A stretch of DNA of 64,000 nucleotides from Tolumonas osonensis (GTDB taxonomy: Bacteria; Pseudomonadota; Gammaproteobacteria; Enterobacterales; Aeromonadaceae): NCBI RefSeq assembly GCF_014202415.1, contig NZ_JACHGR010000005.1, positions 62,001 to 126,000 on the forward strand, in the 5' to 3' direction. Below, piece after piece: positions 26,851 through 37,828 of the stretch (the first letter of the stretch is position 1; each line of letters starts with the position of its first letter). Both the position numbers and the translations under genes were made by a program. The notes under the pieces were generated by a model that saw only the letters and a program-made list of their open reading frames with translations, was not told the origin of the DNA and did not search any database.

Positions 26851-27816
26851 TTATTCCCTTTCCTTCACGTATGCCGTCCCCAGCGCTTTCGGGGCAATGG
26901 CTTTACCAATAAATCCGGCCAGCAGGAATACCGTCAGCACATATGGTAAGGCTTCAATGAACTGAACCGGAATGGTATGTCCGGCAATTTCAACACCTTG
27001 CAGGCGGATCGCCAGCGCATCCAGAAAACCGAACAGCAGGCAGGCACTCATGGCTGGCCACGGGCGCCATTTACCAAACACCAGGGCCGCCAGTGCCATA
27101 TAGCCTTTACCAGCACTCATATTAGGAATGAATTGCGCGGTCTGAGCCATAGAGAGATAGACGCCACCCAATCCGGCCAGCAATCCACAGATCAAGATGG
27201 CGCTGTAACGCATACGGATGACAGAGATCCCGGCGGTATCAACCGCCGCCGGCGCTTCCCCAACGGCTCGCAGACGTAATCCAAACCGGGTGCGGTATAA
27301 AACCCACCATGCGGCGGGTACCGCAAGAAAGGCCATATATTCCAGGACAGTGTGGCCACTCAGCAACTCGGAATAGAGCTGACCGATCACCGGAACATCA
27401 AACAATTCCTTTTCAAACGGGAAATGCAGCGGCGCAAACCGGGCATCGCCATCCAGCGCCGGCGTTTGTCCACCCTGATCAAACCAGTAACGCCCCAGCG
27501 TCACCGTGAGACCAGCCGCCAGAATGTTCACCGCCATACCACTGACAACCTGATCGCCACGGTGAGTAATCGTTGCAAAACCATGCAGTAAAGACATGGC
27601 GATGGATACCACCACACCAGCCAGCAAGCCCTGAACTGCGGATCCCGTCATGGATGCCGTTGCGGCGCCGGCAAAAGCCGAAGCCAGCAAGTTACCTTCC
27701 AGACCGATATTAACCACACCAGAACGTTCACAGAACAAACCGGCCAGTACAGCAAAGATCAGCGGTGTCGCGACACGGATGGTGGAGTCCAGCATCAAGA
27801 TTAATGTTTCGTACAT
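26851..27816 (-). CDS. ABC transporter permease, nucleoside type (NupQ-like)
   Basis: Inner-membrane permease of 321 residues, BPD_transp_2 family, the partner of BMP-type binding proteins. It is helical with conserved FCERSGVVNIGLEGNLLASAF, GLRLRAVGEAP and MGYMALAALVFGKW-like segments (the last reads KGYMALAALVFGKW). It is last in the four-gene operon and its start overlaps the end of the preceding permease by one base. Bacterial homologues with the same gene order take up nucleosides; a substrate cannot be proven here. Confidence 0.87.
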   Translation of the reverse strand: MYETLILMLDSTIRVATPLIFAVLAGLFCERSGVVNIGLEGNLLASAFAGAATASMTGSAVQGLLAGVVVSIAMSLLHGFATITHRGDQVVSGMAVNILAAGLTVTLGRYWFDQGGQTPALDGDARFAPLHFPFEKELFDVPVIGQLYSELLSGHTVLEYMAFLAVPAAWWVLYRTRFGLRLRAVGEAPAAVDTAGISVIRMRYSAILICGLLAGLGGVYLSMAQTAQFIPNMSAGKGYMALAALVFGKWRPWPAMSACLLFGFLDALAIRLQGVEIAGHTIPVQFIEALPYVLTVFLLAGFIGKAIAPKALGTAYVKERE

Positions 27817-28922
27817 TATTCAGCCTCCTGCTTACCGGCCAGCCGGAGATAAAGTGTTTCAAGCTTGGGTTTGAACATATGTTCCAGCGCACCGGAAAAC
27901 AGAATCACCAGCCCCTGCAGTACCACCACGATGTTACGATCCACGCCATATTCAAAGCTGAGTTCTGCCCCACCCTGATACAGGAAACCAAACAACAAGC
28001 TTGCCAGGATGACGCCAACCGGATGATTACGGCCCATCAGCGCGACGGCAATCCCGGTAAAACCAAACCCTTCCACATAGTTCAGTTTGATCTGATGCAG
28101 TTCCCCCTGGATGACATTCAAAGCGAAGAAACCGGCCAGCATACCGGACATAACCATCGCGATGATTGTGACCCGGGAATAAGAAATACCTGCATAGCCG
28201 GCGGCATGCACGTTAGAACCGACTGAACGGATCTGATATCCCCAGCGGGTGTACCACAGAAATCCCCAGACAAAGACCGCACATAGCAAGGCCCAGATCA
28301 GACTGGCATTGACCGGACTCGCCGGTACTTCAATACCCATACCGGCCAGTATGGCATGCAGTTTGGGTAACCAGCTTGCCTCGGCAAAGACCGCACTCTC
28401 GGGCGCCATGGTAGTGGCCGGTTTCAGCACATCCACCAGCAGATACGCCATCAGCGATGAGGCAATAAAATTGAACATAATAGTTGTGATGACGATATGA
28501 CTGCCACGCTTTGCCTGCAGATACGCCGGGATAAATGCCCAGGCGGCACCAAACAGACCGCCAGCCAGTAATGCCAGTGGCAACAATAGCCAGAAAGGCA
28601 ATGTATTCCCCAGCCACAGACAAACCAGACCCACGCCCAGTCCGCCGACATAAGCTTGTCCTTCACCACCGATATTGAAGAGACCCGCGTGATAGGCTAC
28701 GGCAACCGCCAGCCCGGTAAAAATAAAACCGGTGGCATAGTAAAGCGTAAAGCCAATCCCTTCGGCATAGCCAAACGCGCCTTCCCACATTACCTTCACT
28801 GCATCCAGTGGATTAATGTCAATGTAGTAAAACAGCAGCACAGACACGGCAAACGCCATTAAAAGATTAACCAGCGGAATTAATCCGACGTTGATCCAAA
28901 GCGGGATCCGTTGCTGACTCAT
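27816..28922 (-). CDS. ABC transporter permease, nucleoside type (NupP-like)
   Basis: Second permease of the BMP-type importer, 368 residues, BPD_transp_2 family. It contains HAGLFNIGGEGQAYVGGLGVG, IPAYLQAKRGSHIVITTIMFNFIA, and the loop VIQGELHQIKLNYVEGFGFTGIAVALMGRNHP, all typical of the YufP/NupP type. It overlaps the ATPase gene by four bases upstream (ATGA) and the second permease by one base downstream. It forms the heterodimeric channel with its neighbour. Confidence 0.87.
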   Translation of the reverse strand: MSQQRIPLWINVGLIPLVNLLMAFAVSVLLFYYIDINPLDAVKVMWEGAFGYAEGIGFTLYYATGFIFTGLAVAVAYHAGLFNIGGEGQAYVGGLGVGLVCLWLGNTLPFWLLLPLALLAGGLFGAAWAFIPAYLQAKRGSHIVITTIMFNFIASSLMAYLLVDVLKPATTMAPESAVFAEASWLPKLHAILAGMGIEVPASPVNASLIWALLCAVFVWGFLWYTRWGYQIRSVGSNVHAAGYAGISYSRVTIIAMVMSGMLAGFFALNVIQGELHQIKLNYVEGFGFTGIAVALMGRNHPVGVILASLLFGFLYQGGAELSFEYGVDRNIVVVLQGLVILFSGALEHMFKPKLETLYLRLAGKQEAE

Positions 28923-30481
28923 ACATGATCCCCTTGTTTAGCCTGTAAATGATCAGGAACAATATTGGCCATCATTAAACCCAGTGTTTTTTCATCCGCC
29001 TGTGCAGCAGATACTTCACCGACGATAGCGCCATCAAACATCACCAGAATACGATCGGCGAGTGAGAGAATTTCATCCAGCTCTACCGAGACCAGCAGCA
29101 CGGCTTTGCCGGCATCACGCATTGCAATAATCTGTTTATGAATAAACTCTATTGCACCGATATCCACCCCACGGGTTGGCTGTCCTATCAGCAGTACATC
29201 AGGATTTTTTTCCACTTCCCGGGCAATAACCAGTTTCTGCTGATTCCCGCCGGAGAAATTGGCGGTTTTGAGTTGCGGATTCGCCGGACGGACGTCCCAT
29301 TTATCCATCTTTTCCTGGCAATCACGCAGGATCGCATTTTTATCCTGCAATACACCCCGGTTGTACATCGAATGATTGTGATAGCCCAGAATGAAGGCTT
29401 CCTGCGCCGTAAACTTATTGATCAGCCCCATCTTGTGACGATCTTCCGGTACATGCGCCAGACCGTATTTGCGCATGGTCGCGGCATCGGCCGGCATATC
29501 GGCACCAATCTGGTGTTCACCGACCGAGAATGAGCCGCTGACCGGCTGAATAATACCGCTCAGTAATTCCAGCAGTTCCGACTGACCATTACCGGAAACC
29601 CCGGCAATGCCGACCACCTCACCGGCACGAACATGAAAGGAGACCGATTTAACCCGTTCTACCCCGTTGGCATCGATGTAACGCAACTTGTCTGCACGCA
29701 GCAATACATCCGCCGGGTGTGCTTCCTGCTTATCTACTTTGAGGCGAACCTTGCGACCCACCATCAGCTCGGCCAGGTCCTCACGCGAGGTTTCTTTCGT
29801 CGCAACATGCGCGACCATTTCGCCACGGCGCATGACTGATACCTGATCTGTTATCGCCATGATTTCACGCAATTTATGCGTGATCAGAATCACCGTGGTC
29901 CCCTGCTCTTTCAATTTCGCCAGAATAGCGAACAGGTGTTCCGCTTCCTGTGGAGTCAATACCCCGGTTGGCTCATCCAGAATCAGAATTTCGGCGCCAC
30001 GATACAGCGCTTTCAGGATTTCAACCCGTTGCTGCAAGCCAACCGGCAGATCGCCGACATAAGTATCGAGCGGCACTTCCAGCCCATATTGCTCCGCCAG
30101 CTCTTTCAGTTTCTTTCTGGCGGAAGAAAGACTTGGCTCCAGCATCCAGCCCTGCTCAACACCCAGAATGATGTTTTCTAATACTGTGAAGGTATTTACC
30201 AGCATGAAGTGCTGATGAACCATACCGATACCGGCGGCAATCGCATCCTGCGATCCCTCGGGTTGATAAGGAACACCTTTGACTTTCATTTCACCGCTGT
30301 CCGCGTGATAAAAGCCATAGATGATGCTCATTAATGTCGATTTTCCCGCACCGTTCTCCCCAACGATGCCATGGATCGAGCCTCTCCGAACCTGTAAATC
30401 AATATGCTTATTGGCATGAACCTCACCAAATCGCTTATCAACACCACTCAGTTCTAACGCATATGAGTCTGATTGCGTCAC
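28919..30481 (-). CDS. ABC transporter ATPase with two nucleotide-binding domains (NupO-like)
   Basis: Energises uptake by the BMP-type importer. The 520-residue product has two ABC domains in tandem, as in RbsA and YufO. Domain 1 has Walker A GENGAGKST and a degenerate signature DLPVGLQQRVEIL with LDEPTGVL; domain 2 has GVSGNGQSELL and FSGGNQQKLVIARE. I start at GTG 30481, preceded by GGGA, because it gives a family-like N-terminus and leaves a hairpin (30518-30541) in the untranslated gap. An upstream GTG at 30553 is in frame but would run through that hairpin. Confidence 0.86.
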   Translation of the reverse strand: MTQSDSYALELSGVDKRFGEVHANKHIDLQVRRGSIHGIVGENGAGKSTLMSIIYGFYHADSGEMKVKGVPYQPEGSQDAIAAGIGMVHQHFMLVNTFTVLENIILGVEQGWMLEPSLSSARKKLKELAEQYGLEVPLDTYVGDLPVGLQQRVEILKALYRGAEILILDEPTGVLTPQEAEHLFAILAKLKEQGTTVILITHKLREIMAITDQVSVMRRGEMVAHVATKETSREDLAELMVGRKVRLKVDKQEAHPADVLLRADKLRYIDANGVERVKSVSFHVRAGEVVGIAGVSGNGQSELLELLSGIIQPVSGSFSVGEHQIGADMPADAATMRKYGLAHVPEDRHKMGLINKFTAQEAFILGYHNHSMYNRGVLQDKNAILRDCQEKMDKWDVRPANPQLKTANFSGGNQQKLVIAREVEKNPDVLLIGQPTRGVDIGAIEFIHKQIIAMRDAGKAVLLVSVELDEILSLADRILVMFDGAIVGEVSAAQADEKTLGLMMANIVPDHLQAKQGDHV

Positions 30482-30517
30482 AGTATATTTCCCAGGCCAC
30501 AGGTTAATAAATACACA

Positions 30518-30541
30518 AAACCGGCCCCTGTGAGCCGGTTT
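30518..30541 (-). terminator. Hairpin between the BMP binding-protein gene and the ATPase gene
   Basis: Stem AAACCGGC / GCCGGTTT, loop of eight, followed on the minus strand by TGTGTATTTATT. A weak terminator or RNA-stabilising structure that would make the binding protein more abundant than the membrane parts. Confidence 0.6.
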
Positions 30542-30562
30542 CATGAGTTTCACAGATAGAAA

Positions 30563-31564
30563 TCAGTATTTGCAGGTGTTATCAGTCATGTAGTCATGAA
30601 TCTGAATTTTGCCCGCAATAATATCTTTCCGGATCTCTTCCATTTTAGCTTTCATTTCTGGTGTGATCAGTTTTGCATTGTTTTCATCCTGCGCCCAATC
30701 CACCCCGTTTTCTGCCAGACCCAGGGCTTTTACCCCACCTTTCCATTTACCCTGAGCCGCATCATCCCAGCTCTGGAAGGACGCCAGTCCCACACTTTTC
30801 ACCATGGAGGTCAGCATTGTGCCCGGATGCAGGTGGTTCTGGTTTGAATCCACGCCGATTGCCAGCTTGCCGGCATCTTTCGCAGCCTGATATACGCCCA
30901 GACCGGTACCACCAGCGGCAGCATAAACAACATCAGCGCCTTTGGAGAACTGGGTTTTCGCCAGTTCCGCACCTTTAGCCGGGTCAGCGAATGCCGCTGG
31001 CGTAGAACCGGTCATATTCTGGAACACTTCTGCTTTAGGGTTGATATATTTTGCACCCTGCTCATAGCCACATTCAAATTTGCGGATCAGCGGGATATCC
31101 ATCCCACCCACGAAACCGACTTTGCCGGTTTTGGAGGCCTGCGCTGCCAGAGCACCAACCAGGAAGGAGCCTTCATGCTCTTTAAAAACAACAGACTGGA
31201 CATTTGGTTTATCAACGACCGCATCAATAATCGTAAATTGAATATCCGGAAACTCGGCAGCCACTTTTTCAACGGAAGATGAAAAATTGAAACCAACCGC
31301 GACAATAGGACTGAAACCTCGGCTGGCCAGACGACGCAGACCCTGTTCACGCTGTGCTTCGTTCTGCGGCTCGAATTCTTTAACCGTAATATTTTTGACC
31401 TTTTTGTACTCTTCAACGCCATCACGGAAAACCGCTTCGCTAAATGATTTGTCAAATTTGCCCGCGGTATCATAAATAACAGCTGGCTCAGCAGCTTTGG
31501 CATGAGCGCTTAATGAAGTCAGTGTAAACGTCGCTATCGCTGCCATTTTCAGAATATTATTCAT
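30563..31564 (-). CDS. BMP family ABC transporter substrate-binding protein
   Basis: Periplasmic binding protein of 333 residues with a signal peptide ending near SAHAKAA. It belongs to the BMP/PnrA family: VIYDTAGKFDKSFSEAVFRDG, SPIVAVGFNFSS, KVGFVGGMDIPLIRKFECGYEQG and the ADVVYAAAGGTGLGVYQAAK segment are conserved. The family binds purine nucleosides in several bacteria and other ligands in some. It is the first gene of the importer operon. Unlike many Gram-positive homologues it has no lipobox, so it is soluble. Confidence 0.88.
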   Translation of the reverse strand: MNNILKMAAIATFTLTSLSAHAKAAEPAVIYDTAGKFDKSFSEAVFRDGVEEYKKVKNITVKEFEPQNEAQREQGLRRLASRGFSPIVAVGFNFSSSVEKVAAEFPDIQFTIIDAVVDKPNVQSVVFKEHEGSFLVGALAAQASKTGKVGFVGGMDIPLIRKFECGYEQGAKYINPKAEVFQNMTGSTPAAFADPAKGAELAKTQFSKGADVVYAAAGGTGLGVYQAAKDAGKLAIGVDSNQNHLHPGTMLTSMVKSVGLASFQSWDDAAQGKWKGGVKALGLAENGVDWAQDENNAKLITPEMKAKMEEIRKDIIAGKIQIHDYMTDNTCKY

Positions 31565-31765: not shown

Positions 31766-33487
31766 ATGAGTCTTCAGCAAATCACGCTTATTGTGTCGCT
31801 TTTGCAGCAGATGTGCGTCTATGTCGTCATTGTTTATCTGCTCAGTAAAACGCCTCTTTTCCAGCTGCTGACACAGGTGACGATCAGATTACCCAATAAA
31901 ATCCTCTGTTATCTGATCTTTTCCGCTTTTTGCATTATGGGGACCTATTTCGGCCTCCGCATTGACAACTCGATTGCCAATACACGCGCAACCGGCGCTG
32001 TGCTGGGCGGTATTGTCGGTGGCCCGATGGTTGGTTTTATGGTCGGTCTGACAGGCGGAATCCATCGTTACAGTCTAGGTGGTTTTACTTCTTTTGCCTG
32101 CATGGTATCAACTATTGCGGAAGGTGTGTTGGGCGGATTGGTGCATCGTTACTATCTGAGACAACGACGTCCGGAGCAGTTATTTAATCCCTGGATCGTC
32201 TTCTCTACCGCTTTAGTCGCCGAATGCCTGCAGATGGGAATTATCCTGCTACTGGCACGCCCTTTTGATCAGGCATGGCATCTGGTGCAAAACATCGCAT
32301 TACCGATGATGCTGGCCAACAGTTTTGGCGCGGCGATCCTGATGCAGATGTTGCTGGACCGACGAGCCATGTATGAAAAGTATTCCGTCGCTTTTTCCGC
32401 CCGCGCCCTGAAAATCGCCGAACGCTCCATGGGGATTCTGAACAAGGGCTTTAATCAGGAAAACTGCAGCCAGCTTGCCCGGATACTACTGGAAGAAACG
32501 AATGTCGGAGCGGTTGCGCTGACCGATCGGGAAAAACTGCTCGCCTTTATTGGTATTGGTGAAGACCATCACTTGCCCGGTTCACCGATTACTTCTTCGC
32601 ATACACTCAGGGCGATAGCCAACAATGAAGTGGTTTACGCCGACGGTAACCTGATCCGTTATCACTGTACCCTCGATCCGCGCTGCAAACTCGGTTCCAC
32701 ACTGGTGATCCCGCTGCGGGGTGAAGATAACCAGGTCATCGGCACCATCAAACTCTATGAACCGAAGCGAAAACTGTTCTCCTCGCTGAACCGGACACTG
32801 GGTGAAGGCGTGGCAAGACTGCTTTCCACCCAGATCCTGGCCGGGAAATATTCCGCACAAAGTGAACTGTTAGCTCGTTCGGAAATAAAACTACTGCATG
32901 CGCAGGTTAATCCGCATTTCCTGTTTAACGCATTAAATACGCTGGCTTCCGTTATCCGCACCGATCCGGAGAAAGCCCGGCAGTTAGTCCAGCACCTGTC
33001 GCTGTTTTTCCGTAAAAATTTACGCCGGGAAGCGGAAGAAGTGACTCTGAAAGAGGAGCTGGAACACGTAAACAGTTATTTACAGATAGAACTGGCCCGG
33101 TTTCCTGATCGGCTAAAAGTCAATTTAGAGATTGATGAATCACTGCTGCAGCAAAAATTGCCGGCGTTCTCACTGCAACCAATCGTGGAAAATGCGATAA
33201 AGCACGGTATATCTCACGCTATGGATGGTGGAACAGTGTCGATCAAAGGACAACCGTACGCTGATCACTGGCAACTGCTGGTCGAAGATGATGCCGGTTT
33301 ATTTGATGCCCCTGCGCAGCCGGAGAAAAGCGAGAGTAGTAATGGCCTGGGCATGAATCTGGTTGATCGCCGCATTAAAGCACATTACGGGGAACAGTAT
33401 GGCGTACAGGTTAAATGTCAGCCGGAAGTATTAACCCAGGTCATCATTGAATTACCGTTTTCAGAGGTTCAGCCATGTTGCGCGTGA
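31766..33487 (+). CDS. btsS: LytS/BtsS-type sensor histidine kinase
   Basis: Membrane sensor kinase of 573 residues. Its N-terminal ~200 residues form the 5TM LytS module with RIDNSIANTRATGAVLGGIVGGPMVG-like conservation (ATGAVLGGIVGGP). A GAF-like domain (about 215-365) precedes a His_kinase domain with the phosphorylated His in QVNPHFLFNALN and a shortened catalytic domain. E. coli BtsS binds pyruvate through its transmembrane region; YpdA is the paralogue. The BtsS assignment rests on the downstream regulator, the transporter, and the BtsR-type repeats. It overlaps the regulator gene by 13 bases. Confidence 0.82.
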   Translation: MSLQQITLIVSLLQQMCVYVVIVYLLSKTPLFQLLTQVTIRLPNKILCYLIFSAFCIMGTYFGLRIDNSIANTRATGAVLGGIVGGPMVGFMVGLTGGIHRYSLGGFTSFACMVSTIAEGVLGGLVHRYYLRQRRPEQLFNPWIVFSTALVAECLQMGIILLLARPFDQAWHLVQNIALPMMLANSFGAAILMQMLLDRRAMYEKYSVAFSARALKIAERSMGILNKGFNQENCSQLARILLEETNVGAVALTDREKLLAFIGIGEDHHLPGSPITSSHTLRAIANNEVVYADGNLIRYHCTLDPRCKLGSTLVIPLRGEDNQVIGTIKLYEPKRKLFSSLNRTLGEGVARLLSTQILAGKYSAQSELLARSEIKLLHAQVNPHFLFNALNTLASVIRTDPEKARQLVQHLSLFFRKNLRREAEEVTLKEELEHVNSYLQIELARFPDRLKVNLEIDESLLQQKLPAFSLQPIVENAIKHGISHAMDGGTVSIKGQPYADHWQLLVEDDAGLFDAPAQPEKSESSNGLGMNLVDRRIKAHYGEQYGVQVKCQPEVLTQVIIELPFSEVQPCCA

Positions 33488-34191
33488 TGATCGTTGATGA
33501 TGAATTACCTGCCAGAGAGGAATTACGCAGTATTCTTGCAGACTATGATGGTCTGGAGATCATAGGAGAATGCAGTAATGCGCTGGAAGCAATTCCGGCT
33601 ATTCATAAATTACATCCGGATGTCGTCTTTCTGGATATCCAGATGCCTCGAATCAGCGGGCTGGAAATGGTGAGCATGCTGGATCCCGAGCAAATTCCTG
33701 CGATTGTCTTTGTTACCGCTTACGATGAATTTGCGCTGAAAGCGTTTGAGGAAAATGCGTTTGACTATTTGCTGAAACCCATTGAACCAGCCCGGCTGGA
33801 GAAGACGCTGCACCGGTTACGCAAAGAGCTGCCCCCCCAATCCTATCAACCACTGACTGAACTGGCGCCGTTGCGCTCTATTCCCTGCTGTGGTCATAAC
33901 CGGATTTTTTTAGTGCCACTGACGGAAGTGGAATATATTCACAGTGATCTGGCCGGCGTGCATGTCTGCAGTGCCAAACAGGCCGGCGTCACCCAGCTGA
34001 CCATGCGTACGCTGGAAGAGAAAACACCATTCCTGCGCTGTCACCGGCAGTACATGATTAATCCGGATCAGGTGGCGGAAATTCAGTTACTGGAAAACGG
34101 CAGTGCCGAAGTCATTACCCGTGCACAGCAACGGATCCCAGTCAGCCGCCGTTATCTGAAACCGCTTAAACAGAGTCTGAACATTCCTTAA
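33475..34191 (+). CDS. btsR: LytTR-type response regulator (BtsR-like)
   Basis: Response regulator of 238 residues. Receiver domain with phosphoacceptor Asp54 in VVFLDIQMPRISG and the conserved Lys in YLLKPI; LytTR DNA-binding domain from about 135 to the end (IFLVPLTEVEYIHSDLAGV, FLRCHRQYMINPDQV). It is translated from an ATG inside the kinase gene, so the two are coupled. LytTR domains bind direct repeats; matching repeats lie 10 to 60 bases after the stop codon, before the transporter gene. The E. coli equivalent activates btsT in response to pyruvate. Confidence 0.85.
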   Translation: MLRVMIVDDELPAREELRSILADYDGLEIIGECSNALEAIPAIHKLHPDVVFLDIQMPRISGLEMVSMLDPEQIPAIVFVTAYDEFALKAFEENAFDYLLKPIEPARLEKTLHRLRKELPPQSYQPLTELAPLRSIPCCGHNRIFLVPLTEVEYIHSDLAGVHVCSAKQAGVTQLTMRTLEEKTPFLRCHRQYMINPDQVAEIQLLENGSAEVITRAQQRIPVSRRYLKPLKQSLNIP

Positions 34192-34201
34192 ATACATAAA
34201 A

Positions 34202-34251
34202 ACCACTCCCCGGCGAATTAAAACCGCTTAAATACGTCATACAACCGCTCA
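34202..34251 (+). promoter_or_regulatory. BtsR-type direct repeats upstream of the CstA/BtsT gene
   Basis: Three direct repeats at 21-base spacing: ACCACTCC (34202), ACCGCTTA (34223) and ACCGCTCA (34244), with 13-base spacers. The last two fit the pattern ACC(G/A)CT(C/T)A-N13-ACC(G/A)CT(C/T)A as I recall it for E. coli BtsR (YehT); the first matches 7 of 8. They lie about 100 bases before the transporter start, in the position of an activator site. Confidence 0.8.
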
Positions 34252-34352
34252 CCTGATTAGAAATGTGATTCCTGAAATGAGTCTCCTAAAGTGAACCTGT
34301 ACCGCCAGAAAGGATCTGGCGTCAGTTTCCACTTAAATCAGGAGTAACACAC

Positions 34353-36173
34353 ATGACGCATGCAATTACATTTGTCATCAGTGCACTGTGTATTCTTGCC
34401 ATCTGCTATCGGTTCTACGGTATTTTCTTCGTGCGTAAAGTACTGCAGGCTGATGACAGTCAGGTCACGCCTTCTCATGCGTTATCTGATGGCAAAAATT
34501 ACGTGCCAACCAACCGTTGGGTTAACTTCGGTCAGCATTTTGCTGCTATCGCGGCTGCCGGCCCGCTAGTTGGTCCGGTTCTGGCCGCCCAGTATGGCTA
34601 CCTGCCCAGCTTCCTCTGGCTGCTGATAGGCTGTGTCATTGGCGGTGCGGTGCATGATACGGTTGTGCTGTTTGCCTCAATGAAATATCAGGGTAAATCC
34701 CTCTCTGAAGTTGCCAAAGCCGAGCTTGGTCCGGTAGCCGGCTGGTGTACTGGTCTGGCGATGCTGTTCATCATCACCATTACTATGGCGGGTTTGTCTA
34801 TGGTGGTTGTGCATGCGCTGGAACGTAACCCATGGGGTACTTTCGCGGTATTCATGACGATTCCGATTTCCATGGTGGTTGGCCTGTATCACAAATATAC
34901 CGGTGATCTGAAAAACTCATCCATCGTTGGTTTTATTGCCGTGCTGGCCTGTGTGTTCTTCGGCCCGTATATTCAGGGCACCGTGTTCGGTGACTGGCTG
35001 ACCCTGCACGAAACCACCATCAGTCTGGCACTGCCAATCTATGCCTTCTTCGCGACCGCCCTGCCAGTCTGGTTACTGCTGACTCCTCGCGGCTACATTT
35101 CTTCTTTCATGAAGATTGGTGTATTCGGTGCGCTGGTGATCGGTGTGGTATTCATCAACCCCGAAATCAAGTTCCCTGCTCTGACTCAGTTCATTCACGG
35201 CGGTGGTCCTGTTCTGGGTGGCCCGGTATGGCCATTTATTTCTATCACCATCGCTTGCGGTGCCATCTCAGGTTTCCATGCCTTCATCGGTTCAGGTACT
35301 ACACCGAAACTGGTCGACAAATGGAGTGACATCCTGCCTGTCGCATTTGGCGCCATGCTGGCGGAATGTGTGGTTGGTGTGATGGCGCTGATCGCTGCTA
35401 CTGCCTTACATCCTGCAGATTATTTTGCCATCAACTCATCTCCGGCTGCCTTTGCAACGCTGGGCATGAACGTGATTGATTTGCCGCAACTGTCTCAGGA
35501 AATTGGTCTGGACCTGTATGGCCGTACCGGCGGTGCCGTTACTCTGGCTGTTGGTATGTCTTATATCTTCACCAAAGTCAGCTGGTTCAGCAGCCTGGCC
35601 TCTTACTTCTTCCAGTTCGTAGTTATGTTTGAAGCCGTGTTCATCCTGACTGCGGTTGACTCAGGTACTCGTGTGTCACGCTATCTGATCCAGGACTTCT
35701 TCGGTGAATTCTATGCGCCACTGAAACGTCTGGACTGGTTGCCAGGTGCTATCGGCGCGAGCGTACTGGCTTGTGTGATGTGGGGCTACCTGCTGATGTC
35801 CGGTGATATCGGCTCAGTCTGGGCACTGTTCGGGGTTTCTAACCAGCTGATGGCTTCTGTGGGCCTGATCATCGGTACAACCATCATCCTGCGACTGTCC
35901 CAGAAACGTCGTTACGCCCTGACCTGTCTGATCCCACTGGCCTATCTGTTCGTGACAGTGCAATACGCCGGTTACTGGATGATCAAAAATGTTTACTTCA
36001 ATCCGGTTGCCAAAGGTTACAACATCTTCAACGGCTGTATTTCCATCATCATGCTGGCATTGGGCATCATCATCCTGATCTCTGCCATGCGTAAATGGAA
36101 AGAATTGCTGGCAAAACCTGCATCGCAACGCGCACAGGAAGCTATCGAATCAGCGGCTGAACAAGCTGGTTAA
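34353..36173 (+). CDS. CstA/BtsT family peptide or pyruvate transporter
   Basis: Inner-membrane transporter of 606 residues with many helices. It has the family signatures NFGQHFAAIAAAGPLVGPVLAAQYGY, GAVHDTVVLFASMKYQGKSL, and SGFHAFIGSGTTPKLVDKW. E. coli CstA and BtsT are near 700 residues; this shorter form resembles other bacterial CstA proteins. Its place after a BtsSR-type system and the BtsR-type repeats argue for pyruvate uptake, but CstA has also been linked to peptides. It ends at a strong terminator. Confidence 0.85.
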   Translation: MTHAITFVISALCILAICYRFYGIFFVRKVLQADDSQVTPSHALSDGKNYVPTNRWVNFGQHFAAIAAAGPLVGPVLAAQYGYLPSFLWLLIGCVIGGAVHDTVVLFASMKYQGKSLSEVAKAELGPVAGWCTGLAMLFIITITMAGLSMVVVHALERNPWGTFAVFMTIPISMVVGLYHKYTGDLKNSSIVGFIAVLACVFFGPYIQGTVFGDWLTLHETTISLALPIYAFFATALPVWLLLTPRGYISSFMKIGVFGALVIGVVFINPEIKFPALTQFIHGGGPVLGGPVWPFISITIACGAISGFHAFIGSGTTPKLVDKWSDILPVAFGAMLAECVVGVMALIAATALHPADYFAINSSPAAFATLGMNVIDLPQLSQEIGLDLYGRTGGAVTLAVGMSYIFTKVSWFSSLASYFFQFVVMFEAVFILTAVDSGTRVSRYLIQDFFGEFYAPLKRLDWLPGAIGASVLACVMWGYLLMSGDIGSVWALFGVSNQLMASVGLIIGTTIILRLSQKRRYALTCLIPLAYLFVTVQYAGYWMIKNVYFNPVAKGYNIFNGCISIIMLALGIIILISAMRKWKELLAKPASQRAQEAIESAAEQAG

Positions 36174-36192
36174 GATAGAGATTCCAGATAGC

Positions 36193-36220
36193 AAAACGGC
36201 CCTTAACGGGCCGTTTTTTA
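36193..36220 (+). terminator. Intrinsic terminator of the CstA/BtsT gene
   Basis: Stem AAAACGGCCC / GGGCCGTTTT with a TTAAC loop, ending in T6. The A-run on the left allows it to serve ackA from the other side as well. Confidence 0.88.
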
Positions 36221-36242
36221 TATCCGTCAAAACTGACAGAAA

Positions 36243-37451
36243 TTATTTGGCGAACTCAGCCGCGCCTTGTGCAATCACCAGCTCTTCGTTAGTAGGGATA
36301 ACGAACGCTTTAGTGCTGCCAGCTTTGGTGATCAGGCCTGAATTGCCGAAACGAGCTGCTGCGTTACCAGCTTCGTCTTCAACAAAACCGAAGCCTTCCA
36401 GCAACTTCAGTACCGCACTGCGCATTGGCATGGAGTTTTCACCGATACCACCGGTGAAGATCAGTGCGTCTACTTTGCCTACGGCAACGTAGTAAGAAAC
36501 GATATATTTCGCCAGACGGTAGCAGTAGATATCAAATGCCTGCTGGCACTGCTCATCACCCTGCTCCAGACCTTCGATAACACCACGGAAATCGCTGGTT
36601 TTACCAGACAGACCCAACAGACCTGATTTTTTGTTCAGGGTGTTGCGTACATCTTCAACAGAGTAGCCCAGTGTGTCGATCAGGAAGAACACGATGGATG
36701 GATCGATATCACCACAACGGGTACCCATCACGATACCTTCCAGCGGAGTCAGACCCATACTGGTATCAACACATTTACCATTTTTGATTGCGCTGACAGA
36801 ACCACCATTACCCAGATGTGCAGTAATGATATTGGTTTCTGACATCGGTTTACCCAGCAGTTTCGCCGCTTCGGTAGTCACATAATAATGGCTGGTACCA
36901 TGTGCGCCATAGCGACGGATCGCGTGTTCTTTGTACAGCTCGTTCGGGAGCGGATACATGAACGCTTTAGCTGGCATGGTCTGATGGAAAGCGGTATCAA
37001 AAATAGCGACGTGAGGAAGTTCGGAGAAGAGACGGCGGGCTGCTGCAATACCTAACAAGTGAGCCGGGTTATGCAATGGTGCCAGAGGGATGCACTGTTC
37101 AATGCCTTTTACCACTTCGTCAGTGATCAATGTTGGATGAGTGAACAACTCACCGCCATGAACCACACGGTGACCTACTGCGATGAAAGATTTCATCAGC
37201 TCTGGTTTACCTTCAAGAATATGCTCTTCAAGATAAGTCAGTGCTGCAGTGTGATCCGCGCCGGAGGCCAGACTATCTTTCCGCTTCTCGCCATCACCGA
37301 AACGCCAGCTGATCTGAGCTTCCGGTAAACCTAACGCTTCCGCAAGACCACTCAGGTATTGCTCACCAGTCACTGGATCGACAATAGCAAATTTAAGAGA
37401 TGAACTACCGCAGTTCACAACCAGAACGGTTGGATTGATTGTTACTTCCAT
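36243..37451 (-). CDS. ackA: Acetate kinase AckA
   Basis: Interconverts acetyl phosphate and acetate with ADP/ATP. The 402-residue product has [11 protein letters not shown] at the N-terminus, [41 protein letters not shown] and FTGGIGENS. The ATG at 37451 has GAGGAAAG just before it; in-frame codons upstream would add 15 residues with no support. pta, the usual partner, is not downstream. A 512-base gap separates it from the next gene, with a PdhR-type box inside it. Confidence 0.94.
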
Positions 37452-37828
37452 TCTTTCCTCGCATGGCTTAAGACACTCTGTGTCCAAGCAGTTCAAGGTC
37501 AGGGCGAACGAATATTGGATTAAACGCTCGGCGATGGCCTATTTGTATAGGTAACGTCTAAAAACCGGCTCAACGACTTATTCTTCATAAGTTTCAGCTT
37601 TTAGATGCAGCCTGTATTACTGTCTGAACAACTCAGACAACCATTACTGCAAGGCAATCATAATTTATGCCAACCCACAAAAACGGACCCATTTATCATC
37701 TGTTCACCCCAAAACCGCAGTGGTATGGCGTTACAGGCTGACAGTCTGACAGTCTGTTTGTGCGCCGTTTGTAACAAACGACACATTCAAAAACAGGGTG
37801 TCACGTTCTTGTGGTTATCAGCACAATA

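Follow-up and report, generated by a model that had tools for sequence, protein, structure and literature searches.

Three phased boxes of BtsR type lie between a btsSR-type gene pair and a CstA-family transporter gene of Tolumonas osonensis, and the site they form is very probably a BtsR operator. Gene content and sequence comparison make it probable, too, that this operator serves the adjacent BtsSR system, in which pyruvate would bring phospho-BtsR onto three boxes on one DNA face and activate a CstA-family importer. Phased boxes of this kind are conserved in related promoters and co-occur with BtsR. The three boxes, ACCACTCC, ACCGCTTA and ACCGCTCA, begin at 34202, 34223 and 34244 of the window (the whole 64-kb stretch of DNA analysed) and are separated by two exact 21-nt steps, as an earlier note on this DNA had reported; each spacer is 13 nt long, and the 161-nt gap from btsR to the CstA-family gene holds all three. 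Profile matches and alignments also bear out that note's view that the boxes are of BtsR type, with a BtsSR-type system on one side and a CstA-family gene on the other. The features of the locus are as follows.

31766 to 33487, forward strand: btsS-type sensor kinase gene, 573 aa (Pfam 5TM-5TMR_LYT, His_kinase and HATPase; a GAF match is weak and below cut-off).
33475 to 34191, forward strand: btsR-type LytTR response regulator gene, 238 aa (NCBIfam NF008677 BtsR, 380.7 bits, cut-off 246; Pfam Response_reg and LytTR).
34202 to 34209, forward strand: predicted BtsR box 1 (distal), ACCACTCC, with A1, C2, C3, C5 and T6 identical in 10/10 Tolumonas promoters.
34223 to 34230, forward strand: predicted BtsR box 2, ACCGCTTA, mean column identity 0.95 among 10 Tolumonas promoters.
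34244 to 34251, forward strand: predicted BtsR box 3 (promoter-proximal), ACCGCTCA, mean column identity 0.85 among 10 Tolumonas promoters.
34287 to 34292, forward strand: candidate -10 element TAAAGT, identified by eye, 35 nt past box 3.
34303 to 34321, forward strand: hairpin CGCCAG-AAAGGAT-CTGGCG in the probable 5' leader, with GGA in the loop and a stem kept in Tolumonas.
34353 to 36173, forward strand: CstA-family transporter gene, 606 aa (PF02554, 592.7 bits).

The sensor kinase scores 207.7 bits for its 5TM-LYT domain (PF07694) and is 61% identical to E. coli BtsS. Its residues R74, R101, C112 and S115 align with R72, R99, C110 and S113 of E. coli BtsS and are identical at all four positions, and passages of PMC10653868 give these E. 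coli residues as those that form the pyruvate site. The regulator is 59% identical to E. coli BtsR and 92, 91 and 79% identical to BtsR of Tolumonas MAGs. The transporter is only 41% identical to E. coli BtsT and falls short of the CstA equivalog model NF011590 (PRK15015; 468.5 bits against a cut-off of 1188), so that, of its previous description as a CstA/BtsT gene, membership of the CstA family (PF02554) stands and orthology to BtsT does not. The protein is a probable pyruvate importer of the short-CstA subfamily, pyruvate being suggested as its substrate by the neighbouring BtsSR genes. A profile search of the whole assembly returned one LytTR match and one CstA match, and regulator and target are therefore partners by position. 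Upstream of btsS, the stretch from 27816 to 31564 contains a divergent gene for a BMP-type binding protein, with a weak match in NCBIfam, and ORFs resembling those of ABC transporters. Beyond the CstA-family gene lie a terminator-like inverted repeat with a T-run at 36196 to 36219, seen by eye and absent from the scan's list, and a convergent ackA-type gene at 36243 to 37496.

Linkage of btsSR to the transporter gene had been put forward as distinctive, a view that does not hold, given that 47 of 80 BtsR loci carry a CstA-family gene within the sequence fetched, which included flanks of up to 4 kb, and that such linkage is already published: passages of Behr et al. 2017 (PMC5552118) describe targets adjoining the BtsSR system in A. 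hydrophila and V. harveyi. The linked genes in the 47 loci are nearest to short CstA in 18 cases, BtsT in six and BtsU in 23, and a CstA-family gene is absent from the fetched stretch in the other 33 loci. The btsR gene stands directly upstream in 9/9 other Tolumonas and 10/10 Aeromonas-like stretches; locus L095 gave no BtsR match.

The consensus ACC[AG]CT[CT]A, which we take to be the BtsR box, was used for scoring. Phased copies of this consensus stand upstream of the transporter gene, as in a BtsSR system, and the array departs from the exactly two direct repeats of a LytTR two-site operator in having three phased predicted boxes. A two-box pattern, ACCRCTY-14 nt-ACCRCTYA, matches only the two overlapping pairs at this site in the 64-kb window; none of 100 dinucleotide shuffles of the window gave two matches, the largest count being 0, and in the 3.29-Mb assembly the same pattern, which covers the 21-nt step only, again matches at this site only. 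Single exact copies of ACCRCTYA number 8 in the window against 5.95 expected, a difference that is not significant, and it is thus the phasing that carries the signal. A triple test, in which three boxes at 20- or 21-nt gaps were sought in the 300 nt before the gene, gave one mismatch in 24 positions, and 0/200 shuffles were as good. In the alignment of 10 Tolumonas promoters the spacers have mean identities of 0.57 (beside box 1) and 0.71.

Two further candidates near the array were set aside. A fourth copy of ACCGCTTA occurs at 34161 to 34168, in the 3' end of btsR and 41 nt upstream of box 1. Among the nine remaining Tolumonas this copy lies 39-40 nt before box 1 or is missing (L086 and L093), with no mismatch in five genomes, one in L090 and two in L094; it was treated as incidental because its phase is not conserved and because the Pro-Leu codons at that point favour a sequence of this kind. 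Also dropped was a CRP-like half site, AAATGTGA, noticed by eye near 34262, as most relatives read AAATGTTA or similar.

The E. coli BtsR site is described as two boxes, and the third copy in Tolumonas had accordingly been regarded as an addition to the E. coli layout. The K-12 btsT promoter, however, reads GCCGCTCA-N12-ACCGCTTA-N13-ACCACTCA, that is, three phased boxes, of which the third has one mismatch and lies 20 nt upstream of the pair. According to passages of PMC4847170, the SPR oligonucleotide for yjiY already includes this third box. A possible weak fourth box in K-12, GTCACTTA (L085:6477-6484, minus strand), has two mismatches and sits 20 nt upstream of the third. Triples are present in 11/11 enteric BtsT promoters, K-12 included (0-3 mismatches), and in 10/10 Tolumonas promoters (1-2 mismatches in 24; 11 genomes were searched, one of which had no CstA match), with 0/200 shuffles as good in each promoter of both groups. 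As controls, E. coli-type cstA promoters all gave 8-11 mismatches (10/10) and were matched or bettered by 16 to 200 of 200 shuffles, and 0/10 had two or more phased boxes. When the spacing was compared in relatives, the exact 21+21 layout proved not to be conserved: 8/10 Tolumonas promoters have 21+20, one has 20+20, and 21+21 is found in this genome only. The third predicted box is not a local extra, and three predicted boxes are ordinary for the BtsR family.

A search of the phylum for short CstA (398 genomes) yielded only 4 genomes, all belonging to one order and too few alone, and the wider promoter set was therefore drawn from named loci, together with E. coli K-12 and further genomes. 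Under a chain rule that counts 20- and 21-nt steps only, chains of two or more phased boxes occur in 112 of the 124 related promoters whose locus or genome contains BtsR, of three or more in 88 and of four or more in 29; removal of near-duplicates leaves 97 promoters, for which the corresponding numbers are 88, 69 and 24. Left out of the 124 were L095 and L204 (no BtsR found, no chain) and L058 (gene start unmatched), and some named BtsT- and BtsU-type loci were scanned for boxes but lie outside this set. No chain is present in 12 of the 124, including 5/13 short-cstA promoters of other genera and 4/12 Aeromonas-like promoters. Several chainless promoters beat nearly all shuffles in the triple test, with L025 (22/200) and L078 (8/200) as weak cases. 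Where the genome has a BtsR match, the BtsU-type promoters contain two or more phased boxes in 54/54 cases and three or more in 46/54. Three boxes are not universal, as is seen in family f27, where ten of 15 promoters have two boxes, three have three and two have none. Three is nevertheless the commonest box number in the promoters examined, within a range from two (many Aeromonas and f27) to ten (some Vibrio).

Transporter promoters from genomes of other families without a BtsR match, BtsR absence being read from the list of matches, include none with two or more phased boxes (0/19; one of 20 planned was dropped, its gene starting at a contig end). The first BtsR-less class, defined by a 1e-55 cut-off, is not clean, with arrays in three of six promoters (G113, G165 and G228). 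BtsR of the genus-mates of these three genomes scores just inside 1e-55, and we think that their own BtsR falls just outside it. Triples with no more than 3 mismatches occur in the fetched stretch of 36 of the 80 named BtsR loci and are absent from that of the other 44; they total 88, overlaps counted apart, against 2 for the reversed consensus.

Aeromonas-like promoters have weaker phased boxes, often with G at the start or end, and these weaker boxes may be the reason that the motif was left unidentified in A. hydrophila, as stated in passages of Behr et al. 2017 (PMC5552118). The named Aeromonas loci L025, L063 and L068 have a pair of boxes with a 20-nt step. Weaker boxes at 21+21 nt are present in the Aeromonas-like short-cstA promoters L097 to L105, and in eight of these nine (not L101) an exact box, which may be real there, lies 41 nt further upstream; L096 is laid out differently.

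Boxes beyond the first pair are spaced from it almost exclusively by multiples of 20-21 bp. This was seen in an offset scan of 9-69 nt in 90 non-redundant promoters, anchored on the best 20/21-nt pair with at most one mismatch per further box. A further box lies upstream at 20/21 nt in 50 of the 90, at 40/41 nt in 14 and at 60/61 nt in 10, and downstream at 20 nt in 7 and at 40/41 nt in 7; elsewhere there are at most two matches per offset, with a background of 0.30% per offset upstream and 0.17% downstream. Restricted to the 88 promoters with BtsR shown, the upstream counts are 49, 14 and 10. The longest arrays, of ten boxes at 20-nt steps, are found upstream of a BtsU-type gene in V. owensii (L046:396-583) and V. 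jasicida (L062:394-581), where every box has at most one mismatch except one box of L062, ACCACTAG, which has two. Loci L081, L069 and L065 are also among the Vibrio loci with eight to ten phased boxes at approximately 20-nt steps. Across these five long Vibrio arrays, box-to-box identity is 0.75-0.79 and spacer-to-spacer identity 0.26-0.32, and the arrays are therefore unlike fresh duplications, since the spacers are unrelated while the boxes are alike. All 22 promoters of family f22 have at least three boxes, and five have ten when two mismatches per box are allowed.

A consensus scan found no sigma-70 consensus promoter between the boxes and the gene. The hexamer aligned with the candidate -10 element reads TAAAGT or TAAGGT in 9/10 Tolumonas, and the -35 position implied by this candidate lies 12 nt past the end of box 3 by eye, without overlap. 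In E. coli btsT, 135 nt separate the end of the last box from the start codon; passages of PMC10653868 give the btsT reporter as -212/+88, and if +88 marks the start codon, the last box would end near -47. The box placement here and in E. coli fits an activator adjoining the -35 region.

The possibility that the boxes bind BtsR but repress the transporter gene, or set its basal level, instead of activating it is very unlikely. In its favour, the boxes sit just past btsR, and passages of PMC11347149 describe a LytTR protein, CoxC, that represses via a three-repeat operator overlapping the -35 box; box 3 here ends short of the implied -35 by eye instead of lying over it, the array precedes the transporter gene also where btsSR is non-adjacent or on the transporter's other side (E. 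coli and Vibrio L046), and E. coli BtsSR activates btsT in passages of PMC10653868. Chance, or a recent tandem duplication without function, can be given hardly any weight: single boxes do occur at chance frequency in the window, but the phased pattern was matched in 0/100 and the triple in 0/200 shuffles, array presence tracks BtsR, and the divergent spacers of the five Vibrio arrays, set beside their similar boxes, speak against duplication.

A more substantial, though still unlikely, alternative is a classic two-site LytTR operator in which boxes 2 and 3 alone are functional and box 1, a weak relic, has no effect. Against it, the ACC-CT of box 1 is kept in 10/10 Tolumonas promoters while the neighbouring spacer drifts, a third box 20/21 nt upstream is present in 50/90 anchored promoters against a background of 0.3% per offset, and it is kept in 11/11 enteric BtsT promoters. 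Those who prefer two sites could point to passages of PMC4847170, which present two repeats as the general form of a LytTR site, to box 1 as the least consensus-like copy in the window, and to the two boxes only of 10/15 f27 and some Aeromonas-type promoters.

The favoured reading, activation from a three-box BtsR operator, would proceed as follows. Extracellular pyruvate would be bound by BtsS and lead to phosphorylation of BtsR, monomers of which would go on to occupy the three directly repeated boxes, head-to-tail and probably side by side. Steps of 20-21 bp correspond to approximately two helical turns, so the boxes lie on one DNA face, and binding would probably be cooperative, by likeness to CoxC and YpdB. 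Box 3 would lie immediately before the -35 region, and the bound regulator would activate the gene of the putative pyruvate importer.

Among the closest known systems is E. coli BtsSR-btsT (formerly YehUT-yjiY), which shares the sensor and regulator families, the pyruvate-site residues, the box consensus, a CstA-family target and three phased boxes; it differs in that the genes are adjacent here and in that the transporter here, of 606 aa, is of the short-CstA kind and shares 41% identity with BtsT. Vibrio BtsSR-BtsU, described for V. campbellii in passages of PMC10653868, also has a transporter that adjoins the system, and boxes at 20-21 nt are present in the named Vibrio loci, whereas the BtsU-type transporter (494 aa in L046) belongs to another CstA subfamily and up to ten boxes occur. 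The RcoM1 and CoxC operators, in passages of PMC11347149, are likewise three 8-bp direct repeats approximately two turns apart with LytTR recognition, and CoxC needs all three repeats for efficient binding; their consensus is a different one, both are one-component CO regulators, and CoxC represses. YpdB/PyrR at yhjX, in passages of PMC4847170, is a LytTR response regulator whose direct repeats are bound sequentially and cooperatively, unlike the present case in its two sites, different consensus and MFS transporter target. BldC of Streptomyces (PMC5859096) forms cooperative multimers on direct repeats and offers a model for variable-length arrays, although it is a MerR-like protein of an unrelated family.

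The hairpin, which follows the candidate start in the probable leader, is a plausible CsrA site. GGA occurs here both in the hairpin loop and in the ribosome-binding site, csrA is present in the genome, and passages of PMC7730263 state that CsrA inhibits BtsT and CstA synthesis in E. coli. In an alignment of 10 Tolumonas promoters, 2 of which were left out, all 6 pairs of the stem are present in 8/8 rows and one pair is altered on both sides; this is not decisive, as 45/500 shuffles equal the covariation score and 236/500 equal the number of two-sided changed pairs. The loop GGA is missing from two of the 8 rows, and folding z-scores for five sequences lie between -1.5 and -2.9. Rfam returned two matches for 34150-36300, each below the family cut-off.

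More tentatively, and with slightly less than even confidence, BtsR may be a LytTR activator that oligomerises head-to-tail on a phased array of boxes that can be extended, with a three-box unit across several Proteobacteria classes, E. coli included, and a box number, from two to ten, that would tune how steeply or how sensitively the promoter responds to pyruvate, some Vibrio coating approximately 200 bp. The passages of the literature searched name no BtsR operator of three or more boxes, and an earlier description is possible. These results suggest that the BtsR site, as usually described, lacks one box and that a LytTR operator can take the form of a long phased array. The stoichiometry and cooperativity of LytTR binding become directly testable in E. 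coli K-12 with one box removed, and the promoters assembled here constitute a natural series, of two to ten sites, for one regulator family.
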